Source of the DNA: Ahrensia sp.
GTDB taxonomy: Bacteria; Pseudomonadota; Alphaproteobacteria; Rhizobiales; Rhizobiaceae
Length of the DNA: 64,000 nt
Assembly (NCBI GenBank): GCA_002698425.1
Contig: NZXU01000023.1
Span: forward strand, 1-64,000
Reading direction: 5' to 3'
Below the pieces are notes generated by a model. That model saw only the letters and a program-made list of their open reading frames with translations. It was not told the DNA's origin and did not search any database. Made by a program: the position numbers and the translations under genes. This document shows positions 40,403 through 61,483 of this stretch, one piece after another. The first letter of the stretch is position 1; every line of letters begins with the position of its first letter.

Positions 40403-40422
40403 AGCGCGGGTGAGTGACACAA

Positions 40423-43612: not shown

Positions 43613-43624
43613 TTAGCAATCTAA
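43613..43624. promoter_or_regulatory. Candidate MarR operator TTAGCAATCTAA
   Basis: An exact TTAG-N4-CTAA palindrome 23 bp before the TAXI binding-protein start at 43648, where a bound repressor would block transcription or its early steps. Confidence 0.65.
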
Positions 43625-47233: not shown

Positions 47234-47665
47234 TCAGGCGAGTTTCTTCAGGAACGCATCCACGGGCATGACCTCGCGCATCGGAAGATCGGCTGAGTTC
47301 GCATCGAGTTCGGCCACATAGCTGAGACCCTCGCCGTCCCACAGCCACCAATAGGCGATACCGCCCTTCTTGTCGCGGATCGGCATTCTGAAGGTCGGAA
47401 AGTCCTTGAGTTCCGCCGGGATCGCCGCCGTCCCGACCTTCGAGGCGTTTATCCGCTTGTTCTCGATGGCCCCGCCCAACGGCAGCATGGCGACAAAATC
47501 GCTTTTCGAGCGCGCCAGGATCCCGAAATCGTCGGGACGGCTCGCATGACGTCCCGGCAGGACCCGCACCACCTCGGGATAGGAGGCATGGTTGTGTGTG
47601 ACCTGAACATAGGCGTTTCCGCCTTCGGTTTCGATTTCGATGATATCGCCGGGATTGAGTTTCAT
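47234..47665 (-). CDS. Unrecognised 143-aa protein at the end of the pht operon
   Basis: A soluble protein beginning MKLNPGDIIEIETEGGNAYVQV, a beta-rich start reminiscent of small SH3-like or Imm26-like folds, with IAYWWLWDGEG near residue 110. I cannot assign a function. ATG 47665 has GGAG at proper spacing; the 8 codons upstream are not needed. It lies 28 bp downstream of the Pht5-like gene on the same strand, so it is probably expressed with phthalate catabolism. Confidence 0.65.
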   Translation of the reverse strand: MKLNPGDIIEIETEGGNAYVQVTHNHASYPEVVRVLPGRHASRPDDFGILARSKSDFVAMLPLGGAIENKRINASKVGTAAIPAELKDFPTFRMPIRDKKGGIAYWWLWDGEGLSYVAELDANSADLPMREVMPVDAFLKKLA

Positions 47666-47693: not shown

Positions 47694-48686
47694 TCAAAGG
47701 CTATACGCCTCTACGGTGGCGGGATGGAAAAGCTCCTCGACCTCGACCTTTCTCGGCGAGAGGCCCTGCGCGTTGTGGTAGGTCAGGAACTTCTCCAACG
47801 TCTTGCGGTTGGCATCGAGGCCGTAGGGCCAGATGTCGGCGCCCATTAGCGCATGGGCCCGGGCGAGACTGTCTTCCACGAAAGGCATGGTGACCTTTGT
47901 CGCCGACGTGTCGGAGAGCGCTTTTTCCGCGGCCTGCTTGGCTTGCGTGAACGCCTTGAGCAGCGCGCCCGGCAACCATGGATGGACGTCGGCGAGCGAC
48001 CGGCGCAAGCCGAGAACGTGCATGATCGGGAAGATCGCGGTCTTGCGATAGTAGCTCTCGGCCTCCGCGATCGTATCGGCGAAGAGACGGCGGACATGCG
48101 GGTGGCGTTCGTCGAAACAGCGCGGCGCCCTCGGGCCAACGAAACCGTCGATCTCGCCATCGATGAGCATCTGGTTCAAAGTCGCGCCCTCCGGCGCATT
48201 CGTCATCCTTATGTCGTCGGGCAGGTCGACCTTGATCTTCTCCGGCCGGCCGGGCGTATCCATCCCGCCGCGCACCCATTCGATTTCGGAGGGTTTGACG
48301 CCATATTCGTCTTCGAGAATCCCCCGGAACCAGACATTGGCGGACAGCTGGTATTCGGCGATGCCGATACGCCGTCCCCGCAGATCCGCAGGGCCGTCGA
48401 TGCCGCGGTCATTGCGTACATAGATCGAAGTGTGCCGGAATGCGCGTGACAGAAACACCGGGATCGCGATATAATGCGGATCACCACGCGCGACGGAGAT
48501 CGAATAGGACGAGATCGAGAGCTCGCTGATATCGAAGGCCTGGTGACGGAACGCGCGGAAGAACATCTCCTCCGGCGAAAGATGCATGCAGGTCGGATCG
48601 ACGCCGTCGATCTTCACCCGGCCATCGTAGATGGCGCGCGTCCGGTCGTAATCGCCCATTGCGATGGACAGCTTCAGATCGCTCAT
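47694..48686 (-). CDS. pht5: 4,5-dihydroxyphthalate decarboxylase (Pht5-like)
   Basis: A 330-aa protein of the Pht5/OphC family: MGDYDRTRAIYDGRVKIDG near the start, PEEMFFRAFRHQAFDISELS, IPVFLSRAFRHTSIYVR, PEGATLNQMLIDGEIDGFVGPRAP and the ending AQGLSPRKVEVEELFHPATVE are all family landmarks. It removes one carboxylate from 4,5-dihydroxyphthalate to give protocatechuate. The fold is that of periplasmic binding proteins, but there is no signal peptide, in keeping with a cytosolic enzyme. The start overlaps the stop of the Pht4-like gene (ATGA). Confidence 0.92.
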   Translation of the reverse strand: MSDLKLSIAMGDYDRTRAIYDGRVKIDGVDPTCMHLSPEEMFFRAFRHQAFDISELSISSYSISVARGDPHYIAIPVFLSRAFRHTSIYVRNDRGIDGPADLRGRRIGIAEYQLSANVWFRGILEDEYGVKPSEIEWVRGGMDTPGRPEKIKVDLPDDIRMTNAPEGATLNQMLIDGEIDGFVGPRAPRCFDERHPHVRRLFADTIAEAESYYRKTAIFPIMHVLGLRRSLADVHPWLPGALLKAFTQAKQAAEKALSDTSATKVTMPFVEDSLARAHALMGADIWPYGLDANRKTLEKFLTYHNAQGLSPRKVEVEELFHPATVEAYSL

Positions 48687-49876
48687 GATGTCGTGGTCTC
48701 CAATCCCGTTTGATGTTCCAGCGTTACCGGCATCCCGCTTTCGGCCGCCGAAAGGATCGCCCGGCAGATCTCGAGGCTGGCCAGCCCCCAGGCGCCGGTC
48801 TGGGCCGGCGGCTTTCTGTCGCGCACGGTGGCGACCACCGCGTCGATGACCTCCTTGCGGGGGTAGAGGAGGTCCGGCGCTTGCCTGAATTCACGGTCGA
48901 TGTCGCCATAGACATACACGCCCTCCGGCGTAAGGCGCAGGTCGGCCCGGTCGCAGGAAACGATAATCGGCCCGAAATGCTCGTACCGGCTCGCCGGTTT
49001 CGGCATGTCGCCGGACCCGTAGGTGCGCGCCGATTTCAGTTTGATCTCGTCTTCGGCAGAGGAAACCGATTTAAGTTTCCGGCGGGCGTCGCCATAGGCT
49101 TTCGGATCCTTTGCGTTTCCGAGTTCGCCCGTCCACCCCATCCATTCGTCGCTGTCGAAATGCGCGTAACCGGAATAGGTCAGCGAGGCGAAGACACCGC
49201 CGGCAAAGGAGACGAGGGCGGAGTAGGCGCCTTCGGTCGGCCGTGCGGGATCCCATTTTCCGGTCATGGCAAAGACCCTTTCCGCCATGCCGCCGGCCAG
49301 CAGGCGCACGATGTCGATCTGGTGGACACCCTGCGAGAACAGCACGCCGCCGCCCTTTTCGGTATCCAGCTCCTCCGGTCGTCGCGGCCGGTATAGGAAA
49401 TCGGTGTAGTTGAAGGCGTTGATCATGCGGACGCGGCCATAGTCGCCGCTGTCGATCAGTTGTCGCGCAAGGGCGACCGGCGCATCGAAACTGTGGCTTG
49501 GACCGACGATCAGCTGCACGCCGGCCTCGCGGCATGCCTCGACCATGCGCTTCGCGTCTTCGAGGCTGATCGCGATCGGCTTGTCGACGAAAACGTGCTT
49601 TCCGGCTTTTGCCGCGGCGATCACATGCTCGCAATGCAATTCGTGCGGCGTGGCGACATAGACGATCTCGACCTGTGGATCGGCGCAGAGACGGTCGACA
49701 TCCGGATAGGCGTTTCCGCCGAATTCCGCACGGAAGGCCGCACGCGATTCCTCGCGCGGCGCACATGCGGCAACGAGACGGACGCGCTGATCCGCCCGGA
49801 AGGCGGGCAACATCAAGACAAAGCCCCGGCCGAGTCCGATGACCCCGATGCCGACGGGAGAGGCGCTAGAGGTCAA
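48683..49876 (-). CDS. pht4: cis-4,5-dihydroxy-4,5-dihydrophthalate dehydrogenase (Pht4-like, Gfo/Idh/MocA)
   Basis: A 397-aa NAD-dependent dehydrogenase: Rossmann motif GIGVIGLGRGFVLMLPAF (9-26), VYVATPHELHCEHVIAAAKAGKHVFVDKPIA, then the C-terminal GFO/IDH domain with KGGGVLFSQGVHQIDIVRLLAGG. Between the dioxygenase reductase and the Pht5-type decarboxylase it matches Pht4/OphB, which rearomatises the cis-dihydrodiol of phthalate. The start is a TTG at 49876 overlapping the reductase end by 11 bp; no ATG or GTG lies nearby in frame. Confidence 0.9.
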   Translation of the reverse strand: MTSSASPVGIGVIGLGRGFVLMLPAFRADQRVRLVAACAPREESRAAFRAEFGGNAYPDVDRLCADPQVEIVYVATPHELHCEHVIAAAKAGKHVFVDKPIAISLEDAKRMVEACREAGVQLIVGPSHSFDAPVALARQLIDSGDYGRVRMINAFNYTDFLYRPRRPEELDTEKGGGVLFSQGVHQIDIVRLLAGGMAERVFAMTGKWDPARPTEGAYSALVSFAGGVFASLTYSGYAHFDSDEWMGWTGELGNAKDPKAYGDARRKLKSVSSAEDEIKLKSARTYGSGDMPKPASRYEHFGPIIVSCDRADLRLTPEGVYVYGDIDREFRQAPDLLYPRKEVIDAVVATVRDRKPPAQTGAWGLASLEICRAILSAAESGMPVTLEHQTGLETTTS

Positions 49877-50816
49877 TGACGAGATTCCCCGAGCGCGCCC
49901 GCGAGATACAGATCATGATGTAGTCGTCCTTCTCGTCGTCCATCAGCACCATGTCGCGATGATCGACATCGCCCGAGATCAGCCGTGTCTTGCATGTGCC
50001 GCAAGTGCCGCTTTCGCACGAACTGACCGTCGGGATACCGCTGTCCCGCACGGCTTCCAGGATCGAACGGTCGGCCGGAACGGTGACCGTCTTGCCGGAT
50101 TTCGCCAGTTCGACGTCGAACTCCACATCGTCGGGGCGGATGACCTCGACCGGCTTGAAGTCCTCGAAATTCACGCGCCCTTCCGGCCAGTGGCCCGAGA
50201 TCGATTTGATCTCCTCCATCAGCGGCTTGGGGCCGCAGCAATAGACATGGATATTCCGTGGCTCGGCAAAATGGTCCCAGAAGTCGTAGACCTTGGACGG
50301 GTCGCCGCTGTCGTGATGGACAATGACCGCGCTGCCGTAGGCTTGCTTCAAATCGTCGAGATAGGCGGCCTCCTCGGCGCTGCGCGTGCAATAGATGATC
50401 TTGAGCGGCTTGCCCTTCTCGGCCACGTAGCGGGCCATGGCGACGATGGGCGTTACGCCGATACCACCGGCGATCAGCAGGTATTTCGGAGCGTCTTTCA
50501 GCGGGAATTCGTTCTCGGGCGGCTCGACGAGAAGCTCGGTTCCCTCCAGCGCCTCGTCATGCATCGATTGGGAGCCGCCGCGTGAATCGGGTTCTTTCTT
50601 GACGGCGATGATATAGTTTTCCGGATGCGTTCCCGGGCCGACCAGCGAGTATCGCCGCATCGCACCGGACGGTGTCTGAACTGTCACATGGGCGCCGGGG
50701 CCATAGTCGGGCAGTGTTACGCCCGCTTCCGGGACGAGCGTGAATTCAGCGATTGTCGGCGTCAGCATGCGCCGGCTCGCCACCGTCATTTTCATTGCTC
50801 CGCTGCTATCGCTCAT
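49866..50816 (-). CDS. pht2: Phthalate 4,5-dioxygenase reductase (Pht2-like)
   Basis: A 316-aa FMN/NADH/[2Fe-2S] reductase of the phthalate dioxygenase reductase family. Flavin-binding RRYSLVGPG is at about 54-62, the NADH domain has IAGGIGVTPIVAMARY and YCCGPKPLM, and the C-terminal plant-type ferredoxin has CESGTCGTCKT plus a later Cys in IMICISRA. It passes electrons from NADH to the oxygenase encoded divergently at 50952. It heads the pht2-pht4-pht5 operon, with a TTAG-N4-CTAA site 38 bp upstream. Confidence 0.93.
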   Translation of the reverse strand: MSDSSGAMKMTVASRRMLTPTIAEFTLVPEAGVTLPDYGPGAHVTVQTPSGAMRRYSLVGPGTHPENYIIAVKKEPDSRGGSQSMHDEALEGTELLVEPPENEFPLKDAPKYLLIAGGIGVTPIVAMARYVAEKGKPLKIIYCTRSAEEAAYLDDLKQAYGSAVIVHHDSGDPSKVYDFWDHFAEPRNIHVYCCGPKPLMEEIKSISGHWPEGRVNFEDFKPVEVIRPDDVEFDVELAKSGKTVTVPADRSILEAVRDSGIPTVSSCESGTCGTCKTRLISGDVDHRDMVLMDDEKDDYIMICISRARSGNLVIDL

Positions 50817-50854
50817 GTCCCGTTATCGCCTTTCATTCCATAGGGTTTGCATAC

Positions 50855-50866
50855 TTAGAAACCTAA
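50855..50866. promoter_or_regulatory. Candidate MarR operator TTAGAAACCTAA
   Basis: An exact TTAG-N4-CTAA palindrome in front of the pht2 operon, within the 135-bp divergent region. Confidence 0.65.
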
Positions 50867-50915
50867 TTATTTTGTGTCAATGGCTGGACGGGGCACATCC
50901 CCTGTTGTAAATTGC

Positions 50916-50927
50916 TTAGTCATCTAA
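50916..50927. promoter_or_regulatory. Candidate MarR operator TTAGTCATCTAA
   Basis: An exact TTAG-N4-CTAA palindrome 24 bp before the pht3 start, facing the site at 50855 across the same divergent region. Confidence 0.65.
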
Positions 50928-50951
50928 TGAGATTTGATGAGAGAGGAAACC

Positions 50952-52232
50952 ATGCTCACGCCCGAAGAGAATGATATTCTGACGCAAGTCGGCCCGGACA
51001 AGCCGATGGGCAAGCTGATGCGCCAGCATTGGACGCCGGTTTGCCTGTTGGAGGAGGTTGCGGAACCGGACGGCGATCCCTTGCTCGTCGAAGTGCTGGG
51101 AGAACGCTACGTCGCCTTCCGCGATTCCGACGGCAAGCTGGGTCTGCTCGATGAGCTTTGCCCTCATCGCCGCGCATCGCTTGTGCTTGGGCGTAACGAG
51201 GAATGCGGCCTGCGTTGCCTCTATCATGGCTGGAAATTCGACGTGGAGGGCAATGTCGTCGCGATGTCTTCGGAACCCGAAGGCAGCCCGCTGATGGACA
51301 AGGTCAAACAGCCCTCCTATCCGGTGAAGGAGTGGGGCGGCTTTGTCTGGGCCTGGTTCGGCGACAAGGAAAACGTGCCCGAGTTCGATCCGCCGGCCTT
51401 CGCGCCCACGGAGGATTCGCCGATCGCGATCCTGAAAATCCGCATTCCGTGCAACTGGGCGCAGATCCATGAGGGACAGATCGACAGCGCTCATTCGTCG
51501 AGCCTGCACTCGTCCGACATGGTGCCGGCGCGTGTCGAGCGGGCTTCCGCCGACGACAAGTCCTGGTATCGGCCGTCGACCGACAAGTCGCCGCGCATGC
51601 AGACGCAAACGACCAGCTACGGTTTCCACTATGCGGCGATCCGGCGTCCGATCAAGAACGCGGATACGCAGAACTATCTGCGCATCACCGAATATGTGGC
51701 GCCCTATTATTCGCTGATCCCGCCGAACAACATGTACAATGTCGCCAGCGTCATCGTGCCGATCGACGACGTGACGACTGCCTTCCATTTCATCGCCTGG
51801 GGTACGCAGGACGTGCCTTCCACCGAGGAGTGGCGCAAATTCACCTATGCGCGCAAAGGCATCGATCTGAACGATCGCTGGGAGCCGGTCCGCACCAAGG
51901 AAAACAATTTCCTGCAGGACCGCCAGGCGATGAAGCTCGGCAATTTCACCGGCATCAAGGGCATCCCCAACCAGGATATCGCCATGTGGGTGACCCAGGG
52001 TCCGATCGCGGATCGGTCCGTCGATACGCTCGGAGCGTCCGATCTGGCGATTGTGGAGTTCCGGCGCCTGATGGTCGACGCGGCGCGCAAGGTCGCCGAA
52101 GGCGGCAAGGCGATCGGCACGGAAGAGCCTCGCGTCAAGCAGTCGACGATCAACTCGCGCGAAGGCGTCTTCCCGAAAACCGTCGATTGGCGCACGATCG
52201 GCGAGAACGGGGGGATCATGGCGGCCGAATAG
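50952..52232 (+). CDS. pht3: Phthalate 4,5-dioxygenase, oxygenase subunit (Pht3-like)
   Basis: A 426-aa Rieske non-haem iron oxygenase of the phthalate dioxygenase type (single alpha subunit). The Rieske ligands are Cys70, His72, Cys89 and His92 (CPHRRAS, CLYHGWKF). The mononuclear iron site is predicted at Asp178, His181 and His186 in GQIDSAHSSSLHSSD. It converts phthalate to the cis-4,5-dihydrodiol. ATG 50952 follows GAGAGGAAACC; six codons upstream are dispensable. It is monocistronic and closed by a strong terminator at 52274. The reductase is encoded divergently. Confidence 0.93.
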   Translation: MLTPEENDILTQVGPDKPMGKLMRQHWTPVCLLEEVAEPDGDPLLVEVLGERYVAFRDSDGKLGLLDELCPHRRASLVLGRNEECGLRCLYHGWKFDVEGNVVAMSSEPEGSPLMDKVKQPSYPVKEWGGFVWAWFGDKENVPEFDPPAFAPTEDSPIAILKIRIPCNWAQIHEGQIDSAHSSSLHSSDMVPARVERASADDKSWYRPSTDKSPRMQTQTTSYGFHYAAIRRPIKNADTQNYLRITEYVAPYYSLIPPNNMYNVASVIVPIDDVTTAFHFIAWGTQDVPSTEEWRKFTYARKGIDLNDRWEPVRTKENNFLQDRQAMKLGNFTGIKGIPNQDIAMWVTQGPIADRSVDTLGASDLAIVEFRRLMVDAARKVAEGGKAIGTEEPRVKQSTINSREGVFPKTVDWRTIGENGGIMAAE

Positions 52233-52273
52233 ACGGCACGCCTGATCTATTCCACCAATCGTTTGGTGTTCTG

Positions 52274-52309
52274 GCCATCCTGACATCCCGTCAGGATGGC
52301 TTTCTTTTT
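52274..52309 (+). terminator. Strong Rho-independent terminator after pht3
   Basis: GCCATCCTGA (52274-52283) and TCAGGATGGC (52291-52300) form a perfect 10-bp stem with a 7-base loop, followed by TTTCTTTTT. It separates pht3 from the convergent FMN dehydrogenase gene. Confidence 0.9.
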
Positions 52310-53469
52310 CACAGGTCGAGCGGCTTCGACTTGTCGAAATGGAGATGGTCGCGGGAAATCTCGGCGATCTCCCGGCATCCGAGCAGGCGCATCGTCCGCC
52401 GGATTTCCTCACCGAGAATGCCGAGAGCCTGGGACGAACCGGCTTCTCCGCTCGCAGCCAGGCCGTAAAGCGCGGCGCGGCCGATGAGCACCGCGCGTGC
52501 GCCGAGCGCGAGCGCCTTGACGACATCGGTCCCGCGCCGAAAGCCGCTATCGACCAGGACGCTCATCTTGTCTCCGACCTCGTCGACGATCGAGGGGAGG
52601 GCTTCGATCGTGGAGATCGCGCCGTCGAGCTGACGACCGCCGTGGTTCGAAACGACGACGCCGTCCACGCCGGTCTCGTGCGCGATCGCCGCGTCCTCCG
52701 CCGTGAGCACGCCCTTCACCAGTAGCGGCCCCTTCCACTGATCGCGGATGCGCCTGATATCCGACCAGTCGAATGACGGATTGCGCTGGCTGCGGGTGAA
52801 CTCCGCCATCTCGGCAGCCGTTGCCCCGGCTCTGAGCAACGGCGCCAGGTTTTCGAGGCGCGGGGTGCCGAAACGGAGCCAGACCGATGCCAGCCAGCGC
52901 GGATGGGCTAGGCCGTCGATCACGATGCGCGGCGACCACTGGATCTGATGGGCGAAACCGTGACGCCGGTCGCGCTCCCTGTTGCCGGCGACGAGCGAGT
53001 CGACCGTTAAGATCACCGCGCCGTATCCGGCCGCCGCCGCGCGGTCGAGCAGATGCGCCGAGAAGTCCGGCCCGCCCCACGGATAGAGCTGGAACCACCG
53101 GGGACCGCTGTGGTGTCGGGCGATGTCTTCGAGCGAGGTGTTCGATGCCGTCGAAAGCGCGAAGCCGACATTCGCCCGGCCGGCGGCGCGGGCGAGGCAG
53201 ACATCGCCCTTGGGCCAGAGAAGGCCGTTCAGGCCGGTGGGGGCGACGACCAGGGGCAGGGCGATTTTCTCGCCGAAGAGGGTCGTCGCGGTGTCGATCT
53301 CGCCGCCCGCAAGAATCCGCGGTCGGAAGGATATTCGCTCGAACGCCTCACGGTTGCGCCGAAGCGTCGTCTCGTCCTCCGCGCCGCCATCCACATAGTC
53401 GAAGACGACCCTCGGCAGACGCCGGCGCGCCCTGCGGCGCAGGTCGTCTATGTTGACGGGCATCGCCAT
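52309..53469 (-). CDS. FMN-dependent L-2-hydroxyacid dehydrogenase (mandelate/lactate dehydrogenase family)
   Basis: A 386-aa FMN TIM-barrel enzyme: FDYVDGGAEDE near residue 25, PLVVAPTGLNGLLWPKGD, FQLYPWGG, VKGVLTAEDAAIAHETGVDGV, catalytic VSNHGGRQLDG and DSGFRRGTDVVKALALGA. It oxidises an L-2-hydroxyacid to the oxoacid, passing electrons to the membrane or oxygen. In the mandelate pathway the equivalent enzyme is MdlB. Start at ATG 53469 (or 53463), 13 bp after the D-hydroxyacid dehydrogenase gene, in an operon with a ThDP decarboxylase. Confidence 0.88.
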   Translation of the reverse strand: MAMPVNIDDLRRRARRRLPRVVFDYVDGGAEDETTLRRNREAFERISFRPRILAGGEIDTATTLFGEKIALPLVVAPTGLNGLLWPKGDVCLARAAGRANVGFALSTASNTSLEDIARHHSGPRWFQLYPWGGPDFSAHLLDRAAAAGYGAVILTVDSLVAGNRERDRRHGFAHQIQWSPRIVIDGLAHPRWLASVWLRFGTPRLENLAPLLRAGATAAEMAEFTRSQRNPSFDWSDIRRIRDQWKGPLLVKGVLTAEDAAIAHETGVDGVVVSNHGGRQLDGAISTIEALPSIVDEVGDKMSVLVDSGFRRGTDVVKALALGARAVLIGRAALYGLAASGEAGSSQALGILGEEIRRTMRLLGCREIAEISRDHLHFDKSKPLDL

Positions 53470-53482
53470 GCCGTCGGCGCTT

Positions 53483-54520
53483 TCAGGCGACCGCGTCGAG
53501 ACGCGACAGCCTTTCGCGCCATGCCGGTTCGATCTCCGGGTTCTTCGGATAGAGCGGCAGTTCCCCGCGCATGATCCTCTCGGCATTCTCGATGACCGCG
53601 CGGGGCATCGCGTCGTAAAGATCATTGGTGTGACCGACCATATGTGGCGTCAGGATCACCCGGTCGATGCCCCGCAGCGGATGGTCCATTGCCGGTGGCT
53701 CGGGATCGAGCACGTCCAGAGCGCCCCCGCCGAGCCGGCCTTCCTGCATGATCGTCGCGAGCGCGTCCTCATCGACGACCCCGCCGCGCGACGTATTGAT
53801 CAGGATGGCGTCCTCCTTCATCTGCCGAAGTTCTTCGAGGCCGATCAGGTTCCGCGTCTCCGGGGATAAAGGCACATGCAGACTGACGACGTCGCTGCGC
53901 CGCAGGAGTTCTTCCTTTTCGACAAATTCGACACCGGGCCCCGCACTGTCCCTTGCCACATAGGGATCATTGACGATGATGGTAGCGCCCCATCCATTCA
54001 GTCTTTTGACCACGCCGCCGCCGATACGGCCCATCCCGATGATCCCGATCGTGCGGTTCTTCAGCATCCGTGCATGCATCCAGGCAGGCCGCGGCTGGTT
54101 TTCCCGCAGCAGCCTTTCGGTCCGCTTCAGCCCGTACAACAGGACCAGCATGAACATGATGGTGGATTCCGACATGGCCTCGAAATTCTCCGGTATAGGT
54201 CCGTGGCCGACGATGAGCGATCGCGCCGCGCACTCGCCGAGATCGACCGCATCCACCCCGATCGACGGGAAGACGATGCCTTTCAGCCTCGGCGCGGCAT
54301 CGAGGTCCTCGCCGGAGATCCGGCTGCGCGAGCTGGTCACGATGATATCGGCTTCCCCAAGAAGTTGCGCGCGTTCGGAGGCGGAGAGGCGATAGGGGAT
54401 TCCCGGCGTCGCCCTGGGTCCGTGGATGACTGTCCAACCGGCCCTTTCAAAAGATGCGGTGGCGGATTTCAGAACCTCCACCAGATTGGGATCGTCGCAG
54501 ATGTAAACGGTTCCGGGCAT
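53483..54520 (-). CDS. D-isomer-specific 2-hydroxyacid dehydrogenase
   Basis: A 345-aa NAD(P)-dependent dehydrogenase with the family layout: NAD motif IGIIGMGRIGGGVVKRL at about 165-180, and catalytic Arg (INTSRGGVVDE), Glu (DVLDPEPP) and His (ILTPHMVGHT). It interconverts a D-2-hydroxyacid and its 2-oxoacid. ATG 54520 is four bases after the decarboxylase stop; the longer frame upstream is decarboxylase antisequence in another frame. Side by side with an FMN L-type enzyme it may let the cell use both enantiomers. Confidence 0.9.
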   Translation of the reverse strand: MPGTVYICDDPNLVEVLKSATASFERAGWTVIHGPRATPGIPYRLSASERAQLLGEADIIVTSSRSRISGEDLDAAPRLKGIVFPSIGVDAVDLGECAARSLIVGHGPIPENFEAMSESTIMFMLVLLYGLKRTERLLRENQPRPAWMHARMLKNRTIGIIGMGRIGGGVVKRLNGWGATIIVNDPYVARDSAGPGVEFVEKEELLRRSDVVSLHVPLSPETRNLIGLEELRQMKEDAILINTSRGGVVDEDALATIMQEGRLGGGALDVLDPEPPAMDHPLRGIDRVILTPHMVGHTNDLYDAMPRAVIENAERIMRGELPLYPKNPEIEPAWRERLSRLDAVA

Positions 54521-54524
54521 CCGA

Positions 54525-56306
54525 TTAATCGCTCCGCGTGAGGCCCGCGGCCATGTTCGGGTTGTAGCCGGGGCGCACCCGGGCATCGACGACAACGCTT
54601 TTGCCCTGTTTGGCCATCGCGACCGCTTCGCGCACTGCGTCCGCAAGTTCGCCCACTGTGTGGACCGGGCCGATTCCCTCGAGCCCCTGCGCTCTGGCGA
54701 CGCCGGCGAGGTCGATATCGGGGTCGGCGATACGCTGGCCGATCCATTTGTTTTCGACCGGGCGGTCGCGCATGACCGCCACACGTTCCTGGTGAACCTC
54801 GTCATTGAAGAAGGACTGGTTGTTCGCCACGACGGCAACGAAGGGAACGCGGTAATGCGCGCCGCTCCACAGAGCCGCGACGCCCATCATGAAGTCGCCA
54901 TCGCCGAGGACGGCAACCGGCAGCCGGCCGGTGTCCTGCAAGGCCAGGGCTGCACCGACAAGCATCCCGGGGCCGGCTCCGATTCCGCCGCCGCCGTCGG
55001 TGCCCAGATAGTCCAGCGGATGGCGGAAATGCCAGGTCTCGCCAGCCCAGCCGAGCGGCAGGCGGATCAGCGAGACGCATTCCCCCTCGAGACCGGCGCC
55101 CAGCGCCCCGGACAGGCCCATGATGTCGATGGGGGTATCGGGAGCGGGGCAATCGACGGCGCATTTCGCAACGGCGTTTTCGGGACCCGTGCCGGGGCCG
55201 ACGCCGAGTTCGTCGGCGATCAGATGCATCGCGATATCCGGGTCCGACGCCAGATGAAGATCGGTCGCCGGCAGCCCCTGATAATCCATGCTCCAGCCAT
55301 TGTGGATTTGATGGTCCAGCGAGATGCTGACGATCTTCGCGGAAACCTCGCCTGCCTGCTTGCAGGCGCCCGCGAGATCGAGCCAGTCGAGACTGAGTAT
55401 CACATCCGCGTTGCGGATCGCCTCGGTCGCGGCGTCGTCGAAGAAATGCGCCGGTTTGCTGCGATGAAGCGGATGGTTTGTCGGGAAGGCCGCGCCGATC
55501 TTGATGTCGGTCAGGACGCCGGCATCGAGCGCTTCGGCAAGCGCGACGCGACGGGCCCAGTCCTCCGGCTTTCGCGAGACGCGACCCGCCAGAATAAGTG
55601 GCGACTTGGCACCGCGCAGCAATTGCGCGACATGCCTGACCCCGTCGCGCGGCGGCTCTGCCGGCAGGGGCGGGCGGTAGCGTTCGATATCCGGAAGCGC
55701 CGGCATCGCATCCAGCTTTTTCTCCTGTATCGAGACATCGAAATTGACATAGGTCGGCCCGCACGGCGCAGTGCGCGCAATGACATTGGCGCGCAGCATG
55801 GCCTCGATCGCCGCTTCGACCGAGGCCGGCTGGTCGTCCCACTTCGTGAAGTTGCGAACAAGCGCGCCCTGATCCCGCGCCGTGTGGATCCAGTCGATCC
55901 ACGGACGCCGCCGTGCCGCGTCGACCGGCCCGGTCGCGCCGAAGACCAGCATCGGCACGCGATCGCACCAGGCGTTGAAGATGGCCATCGAGCCGTGCAT
56001 CAGGCCGACATTGGAGTGCATGATCACGGCCATCGGCTCACCGGTCACTTTCGCATAGCCATGCGCGATGGCGGCTGCGTGCTCCTCATGCAGGCAGAGC
56101 AGCATTTGCGGGCTCTCGTTTCCGAGCCGGTTGACGAGACTGTCGTGAAGGCCGCGGAAGCTGGCGCCCGGATTGAGCGCCACATACTTCATGCCGGTCA
56201 GCCGCAGCATCTCGGCAAAGACGTCGCTGCCCCAGGCATTACCTTCGGCTGAAGGCACCGGCTTTTCGACTTCGGCACGTGCTGTCGGCGATGATTTCGG
56301 GTTCAT
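54525..56306 (-). CDS. Thiamine-diphosphate-dependent 2-oxoacid decarboxylase (benzoylformate decarboxylase-like)
   Basis: A 593-aa ThDP enzyme of the acetolactate synthase / benzoylformate decarboxylase superfamily. The catalytic Glu74 is in CLHEEHAAAIAHGYAK, HSNVGLMHGSMAIFNAW is the substrate-side loop, a central domain is at about 215-370, and the ThDP motif GDGDFMMGVAALWSGAHYRVPFVAVVANNQS lies near residue 470-500. It would decarboxylate an arylglyoxylate to the aldehyde. GGAGGACCAGGA precedes ATG 56306. It heads the operon with both hydroxyacid dehydrogenases; a TTAG-N4-CTAA-like site is 89 bp upstream. Confidence 0.85.
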   Translation of the reverse strand: MNPKSSPTARAEVEKPVPSAEGNAWGSDVFAEMLRLTGMKYVALNPGASFRGLHDSLVNRLGNESPQMLLCLHEEHAAAIAHGYAKVTGEPMAVIMHSNVGLMHGSMAIFNAWCDRVPMLVFGATGPVDAARRRPWIDWIHTARDQGALVRNFTKWDDQPASVEAAIEAMLRANVIARTAPCGPTYVNFDVSIQEKKLDAMPALPDIERYRPPLPAEPPRDGVRHVAQLLRGAKSPLILAGRVSRKPEDWARRVALAEALDAGVLTDIKIGAAFPTNHPLHRSKPAHFFDDAATEAIRNADVILSLDWLDLAGACKQAGEVSAKIVSISLDHQIHNGWSMDYQGLPATDLHLASDPDIAMHLIADELGVGPGTGPENAVAKCAVDCPAPDTPIDIMGLSGALGAGLEGECVSLIRLPLGWAGETWHFRHPLDYLGTDGGGGIGAGPGMLVGAALALQDTGRLPVAVLGDGDFMMGVAALWSGAHYRVPFVAVVANNQSFFNDEVHQERVAVMRDRPVENKWIGQRIADPDIDLAGVARAQGLEGIGPVHTVGELADAVREAVAMAKQGKSVVVDARVRPGYNPNMAAGLTRSD

Positions 56307-56395
56307 TCCTGGTCCTCCACGCGTCCGGCCACAGAGCCTGTGTCCGGTTCCTCCTCCGGGGTGCTCTCCCGGCCAAGGCTCGGAAAAACAGATGC

Positions 56396-56407
56396 TTTGT
56401 ATGCTAA
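56396..56407. promoter_or_regulatory. Candidate MarR operator TTTGTATGCTAA (one mismatch)
   Basis: Matches TTAG-N4-CTAA with one mismatch in the left arm. It lies before the ThDP-decarboxylase operon, in the third divergent region. Confidence 0.5.
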
Positions 56408-56517
56408 CTTAATTTTCAGGCCGTAACCCGCGGGCGGGATATTTTCAAGACGTCCCTCCCGGCAAACCGGAGCGCCGGGAAACGAATTGACAAGACGGAA
56501 TCGCCTCCATAGTTTGC

Positions 56518-56529
56518 TTAGTATCCTAA
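56518..56529. promoter_or_regulatory. Candidate MarR operator TTAGTATCCTAA
   Basis: An exact TTAG-N4-CTAA palindrome 43 bp before the ABC ATPase start at 56573, facing the site at 56396. Confidence 0.65.
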
Positions 56530-56572
56530 TTTGTCTGGTCGCCAGACGCGGGATGGGAGGAGAAATTTTCGG

Positions 56573-57376
56573 ATGGTGCTAGATATCCGCGGGGTCGGAA
56601 AGTCATTTCGGGCGGCCAACGGCCATACAGTTCATGCCTTGTCCGACGTGTCGCTGACGCTGGACGAAGGCGAGTTCGTATCGATCATCGGGCCGAGCGG
56701 TTGCGGGAAGTCGACCCTGTTCAACATCGTCGGCGGCATGCTGACCGATTTTGACGGAAGCGTTGCCGTCGACGGCAAGGAGATACGCGGACCGCACCGC
56801 GAAATCGGGATGGTCTTCCAGGAAGAGTCGACCTATCCGTGGCGCACCGCGTCGAGGAATGTCGAACTTCCGCTGGAGATCGCCGGCGTGCCGGCAGGCG
56901 AACGGCGCGAGCGCGCCCACAAGCTGATCAAGCTCGTCGGCCTCGAAGGGTTCGAGGACCGCTATCCCGGCGAACTCTCCGGCGGAATGAAGCAACGTAT
57001 CTCGATCGCCCGTACGCTGGCCTTCCAGCCACGCATCATGCTGATGGACGAACCGTTCGGCGCGCTCGACGAGCAGACGCGCCTGCTTCTCGGCGACAAG
57101 ATCCTGCAGATCTGGCAGGAGATCCGCCAGACGACCATGCTGATCACGCACAACATCACCGAAGCCGTGCAGATGAGCGACCGCGTCGTCGTCATGTCGC
57201 ACCGGCCCGGGCGGATCAAGCGCATCATCGACATCGACCTGCCGCGGCCGCGGAGCTCCGAGAACATCGCGGATAAGGCCTTCGGCGACTATGTCGGGAT
57301 GATCTGGAGCGACCTTCGAGAAGAGGCGTCCCAGTATATGAGCGAAAGCGAGGCCGAGAGCCGCGCCGTCGCGTGA
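56573..57376 (+). CDS. ABC transporter ATP-binding protein (phthalate-locus importer)
   Basis: A 267-aa NitT/TauT-type ATPase: Walker A GPSGCGKST (about 44-52), Q-loop MVFQEESTYPWRTASRN, signature LSGGMKQR, Walker B IMLMDEP and switch His in LITHNITEAV. GGGAGGAG precedes ATG 56573 at slightly long spacing; a frame extending 14 codons upstream crosses that site and is not likely used. First gene of an operon with binding protein, two permeases and aldehyde dehydrogenase. Confidence 0.9.
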   Translation: MVLDIRGVGKSFRAANGHTVHALSDVSLTLDEGEFVSIIGPSGCGKSTLFNIVGGMLTDFDGSVAVDGKEIRGPHREIGMVFQEESTYPWRTASRNVELPLEIAGVPAGERRERAHKLIKLVGLEGFEDRYPGELSGGMKQRISIARTLAFQPRIMLMDEPFGALDEQTRLLLGDKILQIWQEIRQTTMLITHNITEAVQMSDRVVVMSHRPGRIKRIIDIDLPRPRSSENIADKAFGDYVGMIWSDLREEASQYMSESEAESRAVA

Positions 57377-57419
57377 ACCGCCCGTATAGCCGGGCAAGAT
57401 TAATTCATGGGAGGAAAAC

Positions 57420-58391
57420 ATGAAGATCAGCAGACTAGCAGCAGCTGCGGCCCTGGCGGCGGCGACTGTACTTTCGGGAAGTGCATGGGCCGCCGATACC
57501 GTTCGCGTCGCCAACGCGCAGAAGGGTTTCTGGGACCAGACGATCATCATGTTCGGCGATGAGGCCGGCATCTTCGACAAGCATGACATCGACCTCGAAA
57601 TTCTCTGGACCGACGGCGGCGCGGATGCGCAACAGGCCGTGATTTCGGGAAGCATGGACGTGGCGTTCGGCACCGGCATGCTCGGCGTGATCAGCGCATG
57701 GGCGAAGGGCGCTCCCGTCGAGATCATCTCGGCGTCGATGACAGGCTCGTCCGACCTCTACTGGTATGTGAAGAGCGACAGCGACATCCAGTCGATGGCC
57801 GATACCAGCGGCAAGACCGTCAGCTTTTCGCGCCCCGGTTCGTCGACAAACCTGGTCTCGGCCAAGCTTGTCGCTGCTGCCGGCACCGATGCCGAACTGG
57901 TCCCGACCGGCGGGCCCGCCGCCACCATGACCCAGGTCATGTCCGGACAGATCGATGTCGGCTGGTCGGCGGTCCCGATTGGACTCGACCGCGAGGTGAG
58001 CGGCGATATCCGCATCATCGCGAGCGGCAATGACGCGCCGGGCGTCGCCCAGCAAACGGTTCGCGTCCAGATCGCCAATCGGAACTTCCTCGAGAAAAAC
58101 GAGGATGCCGTGAAGCGCTTCACCGAAGCCTATCAGGAGGTTCTCGACTGGGCCTACAGCGGAGACGAGGCGCTCCAGAAGTGGGCCGAGATGAACAATC
58201 TGACGCTGGAGGACGCAAGGTCCGCGCGCGATCGCGGCTATCCCAAGGAAGCACTGCAGCTCTACCCGCTTCAAGGCATGGATGCGAACGTCCAGGAGGC
58301 CGTGGACAATGGCCGGCTCGACGAGCCTTTGAGCGAGGAGCAGATCGCCGAGATGACGGCGACTGCGAAAAAAATCCACGGCGACATGTGA
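57420..58391 (+). CDS. ABC transporter substrate-binding protein (NitT/TauT type)
   Basis: A 323-aa periplasmic binding protein; the first ~24 residues (MKISRLAAAAALAAATVLSG.., ending AWAA) are a Sec signal. The mature part has VANAQKGFWDQTIIMFGDEAGIFDKHDIDLEI, QQAVISGSMDVAFGTGMLGVISAWAKGAPV and VMSGQIDVGWSAVPIGLD. GGGAGG lies before ATG 57420. It is co-regulated with phthalate genes, so the ligand is probably an aromatic acid; ABC importers for phthalate are known in other bacteria. Confidence 0.88.
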   Translation: MKISRLAAAAALAAATVLSGSAWAADTVRVANAQKGFWDQTIIMFGDEAGIFDKHDIDLEILWTDGGADAQQAVISGSMDVAFGTGMLGVISAWAKGAPVEIISASMTGSSDLYWYVKSDSDIQSMADTSGKTVSFSRPGSSTNLVSAKLVAAAGTDAELVPTGGPAATMTQVMSGQIDVGWSAVPIGLDREVSGDIRIIASGNDAPGVAQQTVRVQIANRNFLEKNEDAVKRFTEAYQEVLDWAYSGDEALQKWAEMNNLTLEDARSARDRGYPKEALQLYPLQGMDANVQEAVDNGRLDEPLSEEQIAEMTATAKKIHGDM

Positions 58392-58410
58392 AAATCATTT
58401 CGGACGAACC

Positions 58411-59172
58411 GTGACCATTATTCAATTCTACAGATGGGGGCCGGTTATCGCCGGCCTTCTCTTGCTTTCTCTCATAGGTCTCGCGCTGCAATATGCGACG
58501 ACCTCCGGGATTATCTCGCCCTTCGTGGTCCCTCCGCCGGCCGATATCCTGCAAGCGATCCCGAAGCTCTTCATCAAGGAAGGGCTGATCGGCTATTTCT
58601 TCGTGACCGTCGGCATCACGCTGTCGGCGACCCTGATCTCGATCGTCATCGGCTTGCCGATCGGCTGGGTGCTGTTCCGCAGCCCGGATTTCGGAAAAGC
58701 CTATGAGAGCTGGCTCGGCGCGATATTCTCGGCGCCGATCATCCTTCTTTATCCGCTGTTTCTCGTGGTCCTCGGCCGGGGCGTGACGACCATTATCGTC
58801 ATGAGCGTGGTGGTCGGCATCACGCCGATCATCCTCAGCACCTATACGGGCCTCAAAGGCGTTCCGCCGGTCTACCTGCGTGTCGCCAGAAGCTTCAACA
58901 TGGCGAGCCGCGACATCTTCTGGCAAGTCTACGCGCCGGCCGCCATCCCCGCGATCTTCACCGGGGTCCGCCTGGCACTTATCTACGTCATGATCAACGC
59001 GGTGGCGATGGAGTTCCTGATCAGCATCGGCGGGCTCGGCTATCTGGTTGGCGACCTCTACGATCGCTACAACCTGCCGGAGATGTACGCCGCCGTCATC
59101 TTCGTCGTCGTCGCGAGCATCATCTTCTTCACCATCATCGACAGGACGGAAAAATGGCTGAGACGGCGATGA
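58411..59172 (+). CDS. ABC transporter permease, first of two (phthalate-locus importer)
   Basis: A 253-aa permease with about six helices and the coupling loop PPVYLRVARSFNMASRDIFWQVYAPAAIPAIFTGVRLAL. The start is a GTG at 58411. Its end overlaps the second permease by 19 bp. Confidence 0.88.
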   Translation: MTIIQFYRWGPVIAGLLLLSLIGLALQYATTSGIISPFVVPPPADILQAIPKLFIKEGLIGYFFVTVGITLSATLISIVIGLPIGWVLFRSPDFGKAYESWLGAIFSAPIILLYPLFLVVLGRGVTTIIVMSVVVGITPIILSTYTGLKGVPPVYLRVARSFNMASRDIFWQVYAPAAIPAIFTGVRLALIYVMINAVAMEFLISIGGLGYLVGDLYDRYNLPEMYAAVIFVVVASIIFFTIIDRTEKWLRRR

Positions 59173-59945
59173 AAATGCGCGAGGAGCGGCGGCCGTATCT
59201 CGACCGGATCACCGTCATCCGCATCGCCACGGTCTTCGTCGTCTGGGCGATCTACGAGACGGCGGCGCAGTCCGGCCTGTTCTTCGAGGGCGTCGTCCCC
59301 TCGTCGGTCCTGGTTGTGCGTGCCCTCTTCGCGACCCTGGCCGATCCCGGCTTCTACCCGCATCTCTTCCGCACGGCGCAGGAAGTCGTGAGCGGCTTTG
59401 TCCTTGGCGTCTTCTTCGGCATCGCGATCGGCATCATCTTCGGATCGTCGCTCTTCATTGCGCGGATGCTCAACCCGTGGGTCTATTTCATCTCGCCGGC
59501 GCCAAAGATCATCTTTCTGCCGATCATCTTTCTGGTTTTCGGCGTTGGTATCGGCTCGAAGATCGCGATGGCGGGCTTTTCGGCGTTCTTTCCCGTGGTC
59601 ATCGCCACCTATGCCGCGATGCGCGAGATCCCCGGCATCTATATCCGCGTCGGCAACGCGTTCAATGCGAGTTGGTGGCAGATGGTGACGAAGGTCTATA
59701 TCCCGTCGCTCGTCGCGCCGGTGATCACGAGCCTGCGGCTGGCGCTCGGGGTGGCGATCATCGGAACGCTACTCGCCGAGATCAAGCTGTCGAATCTCGG
59801 GCTCGGTCATCTGATCATCCAGCATTACAACTTCCTGCGGATACCCCAGATGTACGCGGTTCTTCTTCTCACTTTTGCAATCGCGGTGTCCGCGAACGGC
59901 TTCATGGGCTGGCTGGCGAACCGTGTCGAACACGACCGCAAATAG
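59154..59945 (+). CDS. ABC transporter permease, second of two (phthalate-locus importer)
   Basis: A 263-aa permease with about six helices and the coupling loop PGIYIRVGNAFNASWWQMVTKVYIPSLVAPVITSLRLALG. AGGACGG precedes ATG 59154. It differs clearly from the first permease, so a heterodimeric channel is likely, as in the importer at 18-21.6 kb. Confidence 0.88.
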   Translation: MAETAMKMREERRPYLDRITVIRIATVFVVWAIYETAAQSGLFFEGVVPSSVLVVRALFATLADPGFYPHLFRTAQEVVSGFVLGVFFGIAIGIIFGSSLFIARMLNPWVYFISPAPKIIFLPIIFLVFGVGIGSKIAMAGFSAFFPVVIATYAAMREIPGIYIRVGNAFNASWWQMVTKVYIPSLVAPVITSLRLALGVAIIGTLLAEIKLSNLGLGHLIIQHYNFLRIPQMYAVLLLTFAIAVSANGFMGWLANRVEHDRK

Positions 59946-59989
59946 GCCATTCAACGAAATCCTGAACCGCATACGAACCGGAGAATTCG

Positions 59990-61483
59990 ATGAATATGAC
60001 GGCAACCACATCTTCCAGCGGCGTTTGGGAGCCTGCCTTGCCTGCAAACAGGGACCTTTACTACGCGGGTGCCTGGCACGGGCCGGTCAAGGGCGGAACC
60101 TCCGAAACCTTCGATCCCGGCAGGGGTATATCGCTTGGCCATGTCGCGGATGCGTCGAAGGAGGATGTCGACAAGGCGGTCGCCGCCGCGCGGGAGGGAT
60201 TTCTCGTCTGGCGCGACGTGGCGCCGCTTGAGCGCGCAAGGATACTCAAGGAGATCGCGCGTATCCTGCGCGACAATCACCGGGAACTAGCGACGATCGA
60301 CGCGGCGAACTGCGGCAATCCCGTTGCCGAGATGATGGGCGATGCCAATGTCGCCGCCGCGCAGCTCGACTTCTTCGCCGGCCTCGTCACGGAGATGAAG
60401 GGCGCGTCGATACCCATGGGTCCGAATGCGGTGAACTTCTCGGTTCGCCAGCCTCTCGGCGTCGTGGCGCGAATCCTGGCCTATAATCACCCGTTCATGT
60501 TCTGCGGCGGCAAGATGGCGGCACCGCTTGCGGCCGGCAATGCTGTCATCATGAAGCCGCCGGCCCAGGCCCCGCTTTCGTCCCTGCGCCTTGCCGAACT
60601 GATCGACGGTCTCATGCCCGCCGGTGTGTTCAATGTCCTGCCGGGCGGCGTCGAGGCCGGCGCGGCGCTGGCGAGCCATCCGGATGTCGCCAAGGTCACG
60701 CTGATCGGGAGTGTGGCCGCGGGCAGGGCCGTGATGCGAGCGGCAAGCGACACGATCAAGCCGGTCCTGCTCGAACTCGGCGGCAAGAACGCCCTGATCG
60801 CCTTTGGCGATTCCGATCCGGAAGCGGTGGCGCGCGCGATCGTCGGCGGCATGAATTTCACCTGGTGCGGCCAGTCTTGCGGTTCGACCAGCCGGGCCTT
60901 CCTGCATGAGGACATCCACGATGCCGTGATAGACCGCGTCCGGCAGGCGGTCAGCAACTTCAAGCCGGGCATCCCGACCGATCCAGAAACGACGATGGGC
61001 GCGCTTGTCAGCAAGGCGCAGCACGAGCGGGTCATGGGATATATCCAGTCTGCAAAGGACGAGGGCGCCACGACCGTGTGCGGCGGCGCGGTCCCGGATG
61101 ACGAGAGCCTGAAAAACGGCTTCTACATCGAGCCGACCATATTCGCTGGCGTGACACGCGACATGAGGATCGCGCGCGAGGAAATCTTCGGGCCGGTCCT
61201 GTCAGTGTCCAAATGGGCGGACGAAAAGCAGATGCTTGCCGACGTGAACGCCCTTGAATACGGACTGACATGCTCGATCTGGACGCGCGACGTGACCCGT
61301 GCGCATCGGACCGCGATGGCGGTGGAAGCGGGGTTCGTCTGGATCAACGAGGTCTCCAAGCACTTCCTGGGCGCGCCCTTCGGCGGAGTGAAGCAGTCAG
61401 GCATCGGGCGCGAGGAATGCCTCGACGAGCTCCTGAGTTTCACGCACGAAAAGAACATACATCTCAGCCTCGTTGGGCAATAA
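59990..61483 (+). CDS. NAD(P)-dependent aldehyde dehydrogenase
   Basis: A 497-aa aldehyde dehydrogenase with cofactor segment ARILAYNHPFMFCGGKMAAPLAAGNAVIMKPP, general-base Glu in LLELGGKNALIAF, nucleophile Cys in CGQSCGSTSRAF and the ending FGGVKQSGIGREE. It oxidises an aldehyde to the acid. As the last gene of the importer operon under the same TTAG-N4-CTAA control as the ThDP decarboxylase, it could oxidise the aryl aldehyde that enzyme releases, producing phthalate or a similar acid. Aliphatic aldehydes remain possible. Confidence 0.92.
   Translation: MNMTATTSSSGVWEPALPANRDLYYAGAWHGPVKGGTSETFDPGRGISLGHVADASKEDVDKAVAAAREGFLVWRDVAPLERARILKEIARILRDNHRELATIDAANCGNPVAEMMGDANVAAAQLDFFAGLVTEMKGASIPMGPNAVNFSVRQPLGVVARILAYNHPFMFCGGKMAAPLAAGNAVIMKPPAQAPLSSLRLAELIDGLMPAGVFNVLPGGVEAGAALASHPDVAKVTLIGSVAAGRAVMRAASDTIKPVLLELGGKNALIAFGDSDPEAVARAIVGGMNFTWCGQSCGSTSRAFLHEDIHDAVIDRVRQAVSNFKPGIPTDPETTMGALVSKAQHERVMGYIQSAKDEGATTVCGGAVPDDESLKNGFYIEPTIFAGVTRDMRIAREEIFGPVLSVSKWADEKQMLADVNALEYGLTCSIWTRDVTRAHRTAMAVEAGFVWINEVSKHFLGAPFGGVKQSGIGREECLDELLSFTHEKNIHLSLVGQ

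Follow-up and report, generated by a model that had tools for sequence, protein, structure and literature searches.

A conserved, co-regulated gene cluster in Ahrensia sp. that may link mandelate-type side-chain chemistry to phthalate catabolism

Which compound is degraded by a locus that combines phthalate ring-degradation genes with enzymes of the mandelate type is a question raised by the window analysed here, a stretch of 64,000 nt from Ahrensia sp. (GCA_002698425.1, contig NZXU01000023.1, positions 1 to 64,000, forward strand). A preliminary description, whose reading extended from position 47694 onward, had proposed hydroxyacid oxidation, ThDP-dependent decarboxylation and aldehyde oxidation leading to phthalate and then to protocatechuate. 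All of the genes that it named were present with the same coordinates and strands, except that the starts of the two hydroxyacid dehydrogenases were trimmed. The locus is real, conserved and co-regulated, and this order of steps was well supported: the gene families fit it, the operators are shared, and the gene set is conserved from taxon to taxon. The starting point may differ: that description missed a conserved four-gene module at 39184–41658 (for a MarR regulator, an 'amidohydrolase', a Rieske ferredoxin and a small protein), which suggests an additional first step in which an arylacetate (e.g., homophthalate) is hydroxylated.

The phthalate 4,5-dioxygenase pathway is represented by predicted genes for its oxygenase, reductase, Gfo/Idh/MocA dehydrogenase and 4,5-dihydroxyphthalate decarboxylase. 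The Pht3-type oxygenase component (50952..52232, + strand, inferred start; LigXa_C and Rieske domains) matched PDB 7fjl/7v25/7v28, which we take to be the phthalate dioxygenase of Comamonas testosteroni KF1, nearly over its full length (602 bits, 416 residues), and had Arg at both positions aligned to Arg207 and Arg244 of that enzyme, presumably its phthalate ligands. The Pht5-type 4,5-dihydroxyphthalate decarboxylase (47694..48686, − strand) matched PDB 9jp7 over its full length (448 bits), while the Pht4-type dihydrodiol dehydrogenase (48683..49876, − strand) was assigned by Pfam (Gfo/Idh/MocA) and operon context and reached no NCBIfam cut-off. The Pht2-type reductase (49866..50816, − strand) contains Fer2 and NAD-binding domains and has homologues annotated as PDR/VanB. 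A small protein encoded after Pht5 (47234..47665, − strand, inferred start) is kept in many pht operons and had no match in Pfam or NCBIfam. The cluster differs from the known pathway in that a MarR-type operator is common to its Pht, hydroxyacid dehydrogenase, ThDP and transporter genes.

Three side-chain genes form one operon on the minus strand in the order ThDP > D > L, and trimming to the inferred starts places D 4 nt and L 13 nt downstream of their respective neighbours. The FMN-dependent L-2-hydroxyacid (mandelate-type) dehydrogenase (52309..53469) had (S)-mandelate dehydrogenase 6bfg as the top match (343 bits) of 47 PDB sequences with E values up to 1e-30, ahead of glycolate and lactate oxidases, which belong to that family too. 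The NAD-dependent D-2-hydroxyacid dehydrogenase (53483..54520) carries PF02826/PF00389 and is followed in the window by L, whereas L follows Pht3 in loci L001, L082 and L092. The ThDP-dependent 2-oxo acid decarboxylase (54525..56306) is a candidate phthalonate decarboxylase. On the plus strand, an aldehyde dehydrogenase (ALDH; 59990..61483; PF00171, 491 bits), a candidate 2-carboxybenzaldehyde dehydrogenase, was 71–73% identical to its counterparts in the closest clusters and 48–58% identical to those in many others. As in the mandelate pathway (MdlB, MdlC and MdlD), an FMN mandelate-type dehydrogenase, a ThDP decarboxylase fold and an aldehyde dehydrogenase would act in the same chemical order; however, that pathway has a racemase where this cluster has an NAD D-2-hydroxyacid dehydrogenase (no mandelate racemase was found among the proteins scanned, which covered part of the window's ORFs), and the product here would feed phthalate rather than benzoate.

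The earlier label of benzoylformate decarboxylase (BFD)-like fitted the ThDP enzyme in fold and key residues, but not in overall similarity. The enzyme has a BFD-type fold, and its E74 and H97, aligned to BFD Glu47 and His70, were conserved in 91 and 93 of 93 rows, respectively. Its identity to BFD is only ~20–22%, a further difference from the mandelate pathway, and it fell below the cut-off of every NCBIfam model among the matches listed (25 of the 48 matched), scoring 128 bits against the BFD model PRK07092, for which the cut-off is 493. Fold scores barely separated BFD, HKA synthase and acetolactate synthase. In the clade to which the enzyme belongs (100% support), Pht3 or dehydrogenase genes lay nearby in 29 of 31 rows, the exceptions being L016 and L012 (a 5.6-kb contig). 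Both dehydrogenases (at least 50%) were missing from 20 of these 31 rows, and the association of ThDP with Pht genes is broader than the subset that also has hydroxyacid dehydrogenases.

That these genes share operators, as had been claimed, was confirmed by an exact search for the inverted repeat TTAGNNNNCTAA, which occurred five times in 64 kb compared to 0.07 expected copies, a number reached in none of 100 shuffles. Two copies precede the TAXI/TRAP genes (TTAGAGAGCTAA, 43502..43513, and TTAGCAATCTAA, 43613..43624), two occupy the Pht2/Pht3 divergent promoter (TTAGAAACCTAA, 50855..50866, and TTAGTCATCTAA, 50916..50927), and one lies in the ThDP/ABC divergent promoter (TTAGTATCCTAA, 56518..56529), together with an operator-like site with one mismatch (TTTGTATGCTAA, 56396..56407). 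Across 88 sequences (87 loci plus the window, 1.70 Mb), 62 exact sites were found relative to 1.5 expected; 56 of them fell in the 300 nt preceding the matched start of one of the set's genes, and 32 of the 87 loci had at least one. Side-chain and ring genes have these operators in common both in the window and in its relatives. The probable reader of TTAGNNNNCTAA is a MarR-family regulator (46697..47200, + strand), as the operator was present in 31 of 33 loci with a homologue of this protein (at least 40%) vs. 5 of 59 without; here and below, we infer which MarR binds which motif.

Two transport systems are placed under the same operator. The ABC genes on the plus strand encode an ATPase (56573..57376, inferred start; 59–69% identical to homologues that neighbour ThDP in many relatives, one of which is annotated as an ABC transporter ATP-binding protein), a substrate-binding protein (57420..58391; 62% identical to an annotated one in L083) and two permeases (58411..59945, comprising 58411–59172 and 59154–59945), after which comes the ALDH gene, with no operator site of its own. 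The TAXI-type TRAP solute-binding protein (43648..44637, + strand, inferred start) was 40% identical to L001 and L082 proteins annotated as TAXI, and the TRAP fused permease (44715..46634, + strand, inferred start) was 51% identical to annotated fused permeases. An EamA-type transporter (42502..43431, − strand) was 37% identical to its EamA counterpart in the L082 cluster. The core genes, differently ordered, and likewise the TTAGNNNNCTAA operator were found in Thioclava, Stappia, Pelagimonas, Salipiger, Phaeobacter and a gammaproteobacterial MAG, and the set was retained through rearrangement down to ~70% ThDP identity.

Amidohydrolase-related dinuclear oxygenases (AROs) are recently recognised metal-dependent oxygenases whose natural substrates are mostly unknown. 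They have been defined as PF04909 proteins adjoining a Rieske protein under 250 aa, and the natural substrates of the candidates in that study could not readily be inferred from genomic data (PMC10811679), and their neighbourhoods offer few co-occurring proteins usable for inferring function (PMC10401708). We judged class membership by PF04909 with an adjacent Rieske protein, six metal-coordinating residues and fold. The 39184–41658 module contains such a pair, namely a small Rieske [2Fe-2S] ferredoxin of 121 aa (39751..40116, + strand; Pfam Rieske) and a PF04909 protein (40414..41658, + strand) for which AROs are the nearest solved proteins in both sequence and fold; between them lies the gene of a small conserved protein (40103..40402, + strand, inferred start) with no NCBIfam match. 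When a model of the ARO candidate (pLDDT 77.9) was searched with Foldseek, ranks 1–19 were all chains of ARO entries and ACMSD appeared at rank 20; the nearest folds were 8sm7, 8sm6 and AibH1H2, at ~19–26% identity. Eight residues (D49, D51, H53, H238, H269, E291, D363 and H366) were invariant in 32 sequences; by alignment, most correspond to identical residues of 8sm7, and AibH2 and 8sm9 lack H269. The side-by-side PF04909 protein and small ferredoxin resemble those of AibH2, SfbO and PtmU3 (PMC10811679); unlike known AROs, the module showed no second ARO-type subunit, and its location in a phthalate cluster makes a substrate guessable. The adjacent regulator gene (MarRb; 39184..39642, − strand) matched only MarR-type families, below cut-off, and is kept beside the module in L001, L092–L097, L099 and L100. 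A second operator, TAAGACAATCTTA, was found exactly at 39691..39703 with a one-mismatch copy at 39718–39730, and the pattern TAAGRNNNTCTTA occurred in 12 of 110 loci (9 distinct records), every one of which has the MarRb module.

Our best model, to which we assign an even chance, is a co-regulated peripheral pathway that would turn an ortho-carboxylated aryl acid into phthalate by shortening its side chain by one carbon, the phthalate then being degraded by the phthalate 4,5-dioxygenase route. The route is probably opened by the ARO-type oxygenase, which with its ferredoxin would hydroxylate an arylacetate at its benzylic carbon, the most plausible case being homophthalate to 2-carboxymandelate (step 1). 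The L-enzyme with FMN and the D-enzyme with NAD, one per enantiomer, would then yield phthalonate (step 2), the ThDP enzyme 2-carboxybenzaldehyde (step 3) and the ALDH phthalate (step 4), from which Pht3/Pht2, Pht4 and Pht5 would produce protocatechuate (step 5). Each of these substrates is a proposal from chemistry, and the direction of steps 2–4 and the place of the ARO are likewise proposed. One MarR reading TTAGNNNNCTAA would govern steps 2–5 and uptake, and MarRb, acting on the second motif TAAGANNNTCTTA, would govern step 1. More tentatively, and with some doubt, the amidohydrolase-fold dinuclear (Fe2 or Mn/Fe) oxygenase and its own ferredoxin might constitute a homophthalate benzylic C–H hydroxylase starting an undescribed route assembled backwards, with Pht genes acquired before ThDP and ALDH, and these before the two hydroxyacid dehydrogenases and the ARO.

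The model is supported by the nearly full-length matches of Pht3 and Pht5 to solved enzymes, the kinship of the L-enzyme to mandelate dehydrogenase, the BFD-type fold with its Glu and His, the shared operators, the persistence of the gene set in rearranged operons, and the co-occurrence of ARO and dehydrogenases. An ARO (85–87%) was present in 5 of 6 genomes with hydroxyacid dehydrogenases vs. 0 of 21 without, and among 394 genomes, all four with ThDP at 69% or above also had L (60–61%) and ARO (85%) on the same contig, vs. neither in the 13 with ThDP only at 49–59%; several copies are 99–100% identical and plasmid-type, so these counts are not independent, which weakens the model. Further support comes from the near-identical loci L056 and L069, in which an ARO (63–64%) stands with ThDP and ALDH genes and with distantly related dehydrogenases of the L and D types, and which contain no Pht genes, although a Pht3 homologue (58%) on a separate contig of the L056 genome (G418) means that this case is not free of Pht-like genes. 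The model is also weakened by the dehydrogenase-free rows of the ThDP clade, the NCBIfam results and poorly discriminating fold scores of the ThDP enzyme, and L106, where Pht3, ALDH, ferredoxin and ARO (77%) lie under two operators on a 16-kb contig with no dehydrogenase or ThDP genes; L and ThDP were unmatched in its genome (G087) at the thresholds used, and the ARO is therefore not tied to step 2 there.

The difference between the ARO operator and that of the remaining cluster genes weakens the model too, and would suit entry at imported 2-carboxymandelate (or its lactone) or phthalonate, e.g., from naphthoquinone oxidation, with the ARO in another role. Such entry is consistent with an operator common to two transport systems, with enzyme types for both enantiomers of a racemic, non-enzymatically formed substrate, and with L083 and L084, which combine Pht and ThDP genes with the L-enzyme and show no window-type ARO in the stretch covered; L083 (29.7 kb covered), a locus that likewise counts against the best model, also lacks the D-enzyme there and encodes a P450 and an annotated amidohydrolase unmatched by the ARO query. 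We nevertheless consider such entry unlikely, given that the ARO gene closes this cluster in both L001 and L092 and that ARO and dehydrogenases go together across the 27 and the 394 genomes. A lower probability still is given to the side-chain enzymes using another 2-hydroxy acid, in which case Pht3 would be supplied with an analogue of phthalate, or the product of the ThDP enzyme would join later. The ThDP family may handle other substrates, since its relatives also occur in clusters without Pht genes, and 28 of 80 ThDP-relative loci (some of them short contigs) had no ALDH, Pht3 or Pht5 homologue; against this, the window's own ThDP clade is almost always near Pht3 or dehydrogenases, and shared operators link the side-chain genes to Pht2/Pht3.

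HKA synthase 8xod and AcHACL lie next to BFD in the fold ranking, as would be expected if the ThDP enzyme were a carboligase or lyase (acetolactate-, HACL- or HKA-synthase-like) and no decarboxylase, but the His found in all 93 rows at the BFD His70 position and the adjacent ALDH in many relatives, consistent with an aldehyde product, make this quite improbable. Finally, plasmids gather catabolic genes, and the cluster could represent ordinary phthalate catabolism with unrelated neighbours; the conserved operator and a gene set retained through rearrangement leave this the slightest probability of all.

The claim that no described operon couples these steps agreed with the open-access literature searched (subscription papers lay outside its scope), which contained no side-chain-to-phthalate route. 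No paper there brought together phthalate, benzoylformate decarboxylase and hydroxyacid dehydrogenase, or phthalate, TRAP transporter and similar terms, and no matches listed joined phthalate and side-chain terms. Titles and opening lines of abstracts for phthalonate or 2-carboxymandelate indicated no bacterial catabolism, homophthalate matched one paper, on a Rhodococcus genome, and Pelagimonas/homophthalate gave only taxonomy or community papers. Among the matches listed, there was no paper on BbmA and no phthalate paper in the ARO literature, and a 2026 phthalate review, searched by term, had no occurrence of thiamine, hydroxyacid, homophthal, carboxybenzaldehyde or mandelate.

These results predict a new entry into phthalate catabolism, carried on plasmids of marine bacteria among others, and suggest sources of phthalate besides plasticisers. 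The precise regulon motif allows pathway members to be found by sequence, and a clade of AROs gains a testable substrate. If the model is true, mandelate-type side-chain chemistry would be tied to phthalate.

ORF, Pfam and NCBIfam searches of the window confirmed every gene named in the preliminary description. The candidate 2-oxo acid decarboxylase (ThDP; 54525-56306, minus strand) heads an operon that continues on the same strand with a D-type 2-hydroxyacid dehydrogenase (53483-54520, 4-nt gap) and then an FMN L-type enzyme (52309-53469, 13-nt gap), both with predicted starts. ABC transporter genes and the aldehyde dehydrogenase gene (ALDH; 59990-61483) are transcribed rightwards from a promoter divergent with ThDP, and the phthalate-ring genes Pht2-Pht4-Pht5 leftwards from one divergent with Pht3. 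A small protein (47234-47665; no Pfam or NCBIfam match) is encoded directly 3' of Pht5 in many pht operons, with 42-56% identity. Elsewhere in the window were a class II aldolase-like gene (41746-42471), whose best family model, the 3,4-dihydroxyphthalate decarboxylase PhtC, scored 64.5 bits against a cut-off of 200; a second FMN-dependent hydroxyacid dehydrogenase (21183-22856; 40% identity to that of the cluster) adjoining ABC transporter and ketopantoate-reductase-like genes; and a salicylyl-CoA 5-hydroxylase-like FAD monooxygenase fused to a benzoate-CoA-ligase-family domain (30159-32906), near gentisate-dioxygenase-like and related genes at 36014-39049.

The main operator of the side-chain, ring and transport genes, TTAGNNNNCTAA, occurred in five exact copies in the window (0.07 expected), confined to the TAXI/TRAP, Pht2/Pht3 and ThDP/ABC promoters. 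Across 87 related loci and the window there were 62 exact sites in 1.70 Mb, a count that includes near-identical loci, against 1.5 expected; 56 of the 62 lay ≤300 nt upstream of a matched start of Pht2, Pht3, Pht5, ALDH, ThDP, TAXI, MarR or the ABC ATPase, and 32 of the 87 related loci carried the motif. Among loci L001-L092, it was present in 31/33 with a homologue (≥40%) of the cluster's MarR (46697-47200) vs 5/59 without, and in 32/34 with Pht3 vs 4/58 without. Since the motif tracks the MarR homologue, we infer that this regulator is likely its reader.

The preliminary description had missed a module at 39184-41658, consisting of the regulator MarRb (39184-39642), a Rieske ferredoxin, a small protein and a PF04909 protein (40414-41658), just such a neighbourhood as defines the amidohydrolase-related dinuclear oxygenases (AROs) in PMC10811679. 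The nearest solved sequences to the PF04909 protein were those of PMC10811679 and AibH2, and a Foldseek search with its predicted model (pLDDT 77.9) returned only chains of ARO entries at ranks 1-19. In L001, L092 and the regions of genomes G001, G002 and G003, the Pht cluster ends with an EamA gene and, after it, MarRb, ferredoxin, small protein and ARO. A palindromic second operator, TAAGANNNTCTTA, lies in the MarRb-ferredoxin gap (one exact window copy, plus one with a single mismatch); when its fifth base was relaxed to R, the pattern was found in 12/110 loci, being nine distinct records and three that overlap others of the same genome (G001, G002, G003), and every one carried the MarRb-ARO module.

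In 27 genomes searched, ARO was found at 85-87% identity in 5/6 with the dehydrogenases vs 0/21 without, one of the latter (G022) having a 56% homologue. The match in G002 was scored with one stop, yet a 408-codon open frame is present there; the sixth dehydrogenase genome is that of a MAG, G004, and arithmetic comparison with G003 would place the end of its contig inside the ARO gene. A second survey covered 394 genomes, all of one family. ARO matched at E ≤1e-60 in eight (≥77% in G003, G006, G087, G254 and G355), the L-enzyme in five (G003, G006, G186, G254 and G355) and ThDP in 17 (≥69% in G003, G006, G254, where the match starts at residue 110, and G355), with at most 3-4 L-enzyme and ThDP candidates scored per genome and drafts that may be incomplete. 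ThDP (≥69%), L-enzyme and ARO lay on one contig in all four genomes with such a ThDP, and none of the 13 with ThDP only at 49-59% had L-enzyme or ARO at the identities stated. The ThDP and ARO match lists share the longest-contig values 35785, 166687 and 4765, which suggests that these may be the same contigs. The hypergeometric value of 5e-9 overstates the co-occurrence, because few candidates were scored, drafts may have gaps, copies are near-identical, and G003 and G006 were known before the survey. In G186, which had no ThDP or ARO match in this survey, a homologue of the L-enzyme interrupted by two in-frame TAG stops (contig C10, 43078-44193) adjoins a Pht3 gene; an L-dehydrogenase homologue in G254 (contig C3, 67168-68283) likewise has two in-frame TAG stops and a Pht3 neighbour.

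If phthalate is taken as the product, the substrate of the two enantiomer-specific enzymes, a 2-hydroxy acid that is oxidised, decarboxylated and oxidised again, would on chemical grounds be 2-carboxymandelate, and homophthalate would be the candidate start for an oxygenase making it. The coupling of these steps was not found among the papers listed from the open-access literature, which was the scope of the search; we make no claim of priority. Some loci count against this scheme. In L106 (G087), two operators precede Pht3-ALDH-ferredoxin-small protein-ARO and a thiolase gene comes after it; neither the contig nor, at the thresholds used, the genome has a dehydrogenase or ThDP gene. This locus strengthens the tie of ARO to phthalate but weakens its tie to the dehydrogenase step. 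A Rhizobium locus (L083, 29.7 kb) has L-enzyme and ThDP with a P450, and its annotated amidohydrolase and ferredoxin do not match the window's ARO module. In the near-identical pair L056 and L069, ARO and ALDH are accompanied by two ThDP genes and by distantly related enzymes of the L- and D-type, with HpaB (L056) or UbiD (L069) as neighbours and no Pht in either locus; a 58% Pht3 homologue is on another contig of the L056 genome, and none was found in that of L069. This pair supports an ARO-to-aldehyde unit, there perhaps acting on another aromatic. L047, L051, L060 and L079 lack Pht3 in the locus, and their ThDP-ABC-ALDH clusters encode a pair of Pht5-like proteins (39-40% and 59-61%); they may represent a related pathway for another ring substrate.

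The quinolinate phosphoribosyltransferase gene nadC was seen in L001 (13557-14348), L082 (12995-13846), L089 (14866-15747, directly 3' of Pht5) and L092 (14996-15847), and within the phthalate clusters of L003-L007, L014, L026 and L070; none was seen among the window's scanned genes. Self-protection of NAD synthesis against phthalate is possible, since human QPRT has a similar affinity for phthalate and for quinolinate (Kd 5.2 and 4.8 μM, respectively; PMC4726147). However, the cluster nadC was the sole QRPTase_C match in G005 and G006, and six of nine cluster genomes without nadC in the locus had no QRPTase_C match anywhere.

A GTDB genome scan confirmed at least 592 ThDP relatives. The flanks of the best 80, some ending at contig edges that limit the counts, contained (≥50% identity) Pht3 in 26, the L-enzyme in five and the D-enzyme in six. 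The gene set, with pca genes, was found on annotated plasmids of Thioclava, Phaeobacter (where the stretch examined stops within MarRb, short of the ARO gene) and Salipiger. Close ThDP proteins shared 88-100% identity with one another, so several are recent transfers of one cluster; they were 70-73% identical to that of the window, whose cluster is diverged and rearranged, with the set still kept. Separate from these is L084, a betaproteobacterial plasmid whose L-type gene is short (281 codons as annotated). A tree built from 93 ThDP rows contained a clade of 31 (100% support): 18 of these were Pht-linked, 11 had dehydrogenases and formed their own subclade (99% support), and the remaining two belonged to neither group. 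L106 is at odds with a strict order of assembly in which ARO came last. The nesting of the dehydrogenase rows within this clade suggests outward growth of the pathway from phthalate, with ThDP first and the dehydrogenases later.
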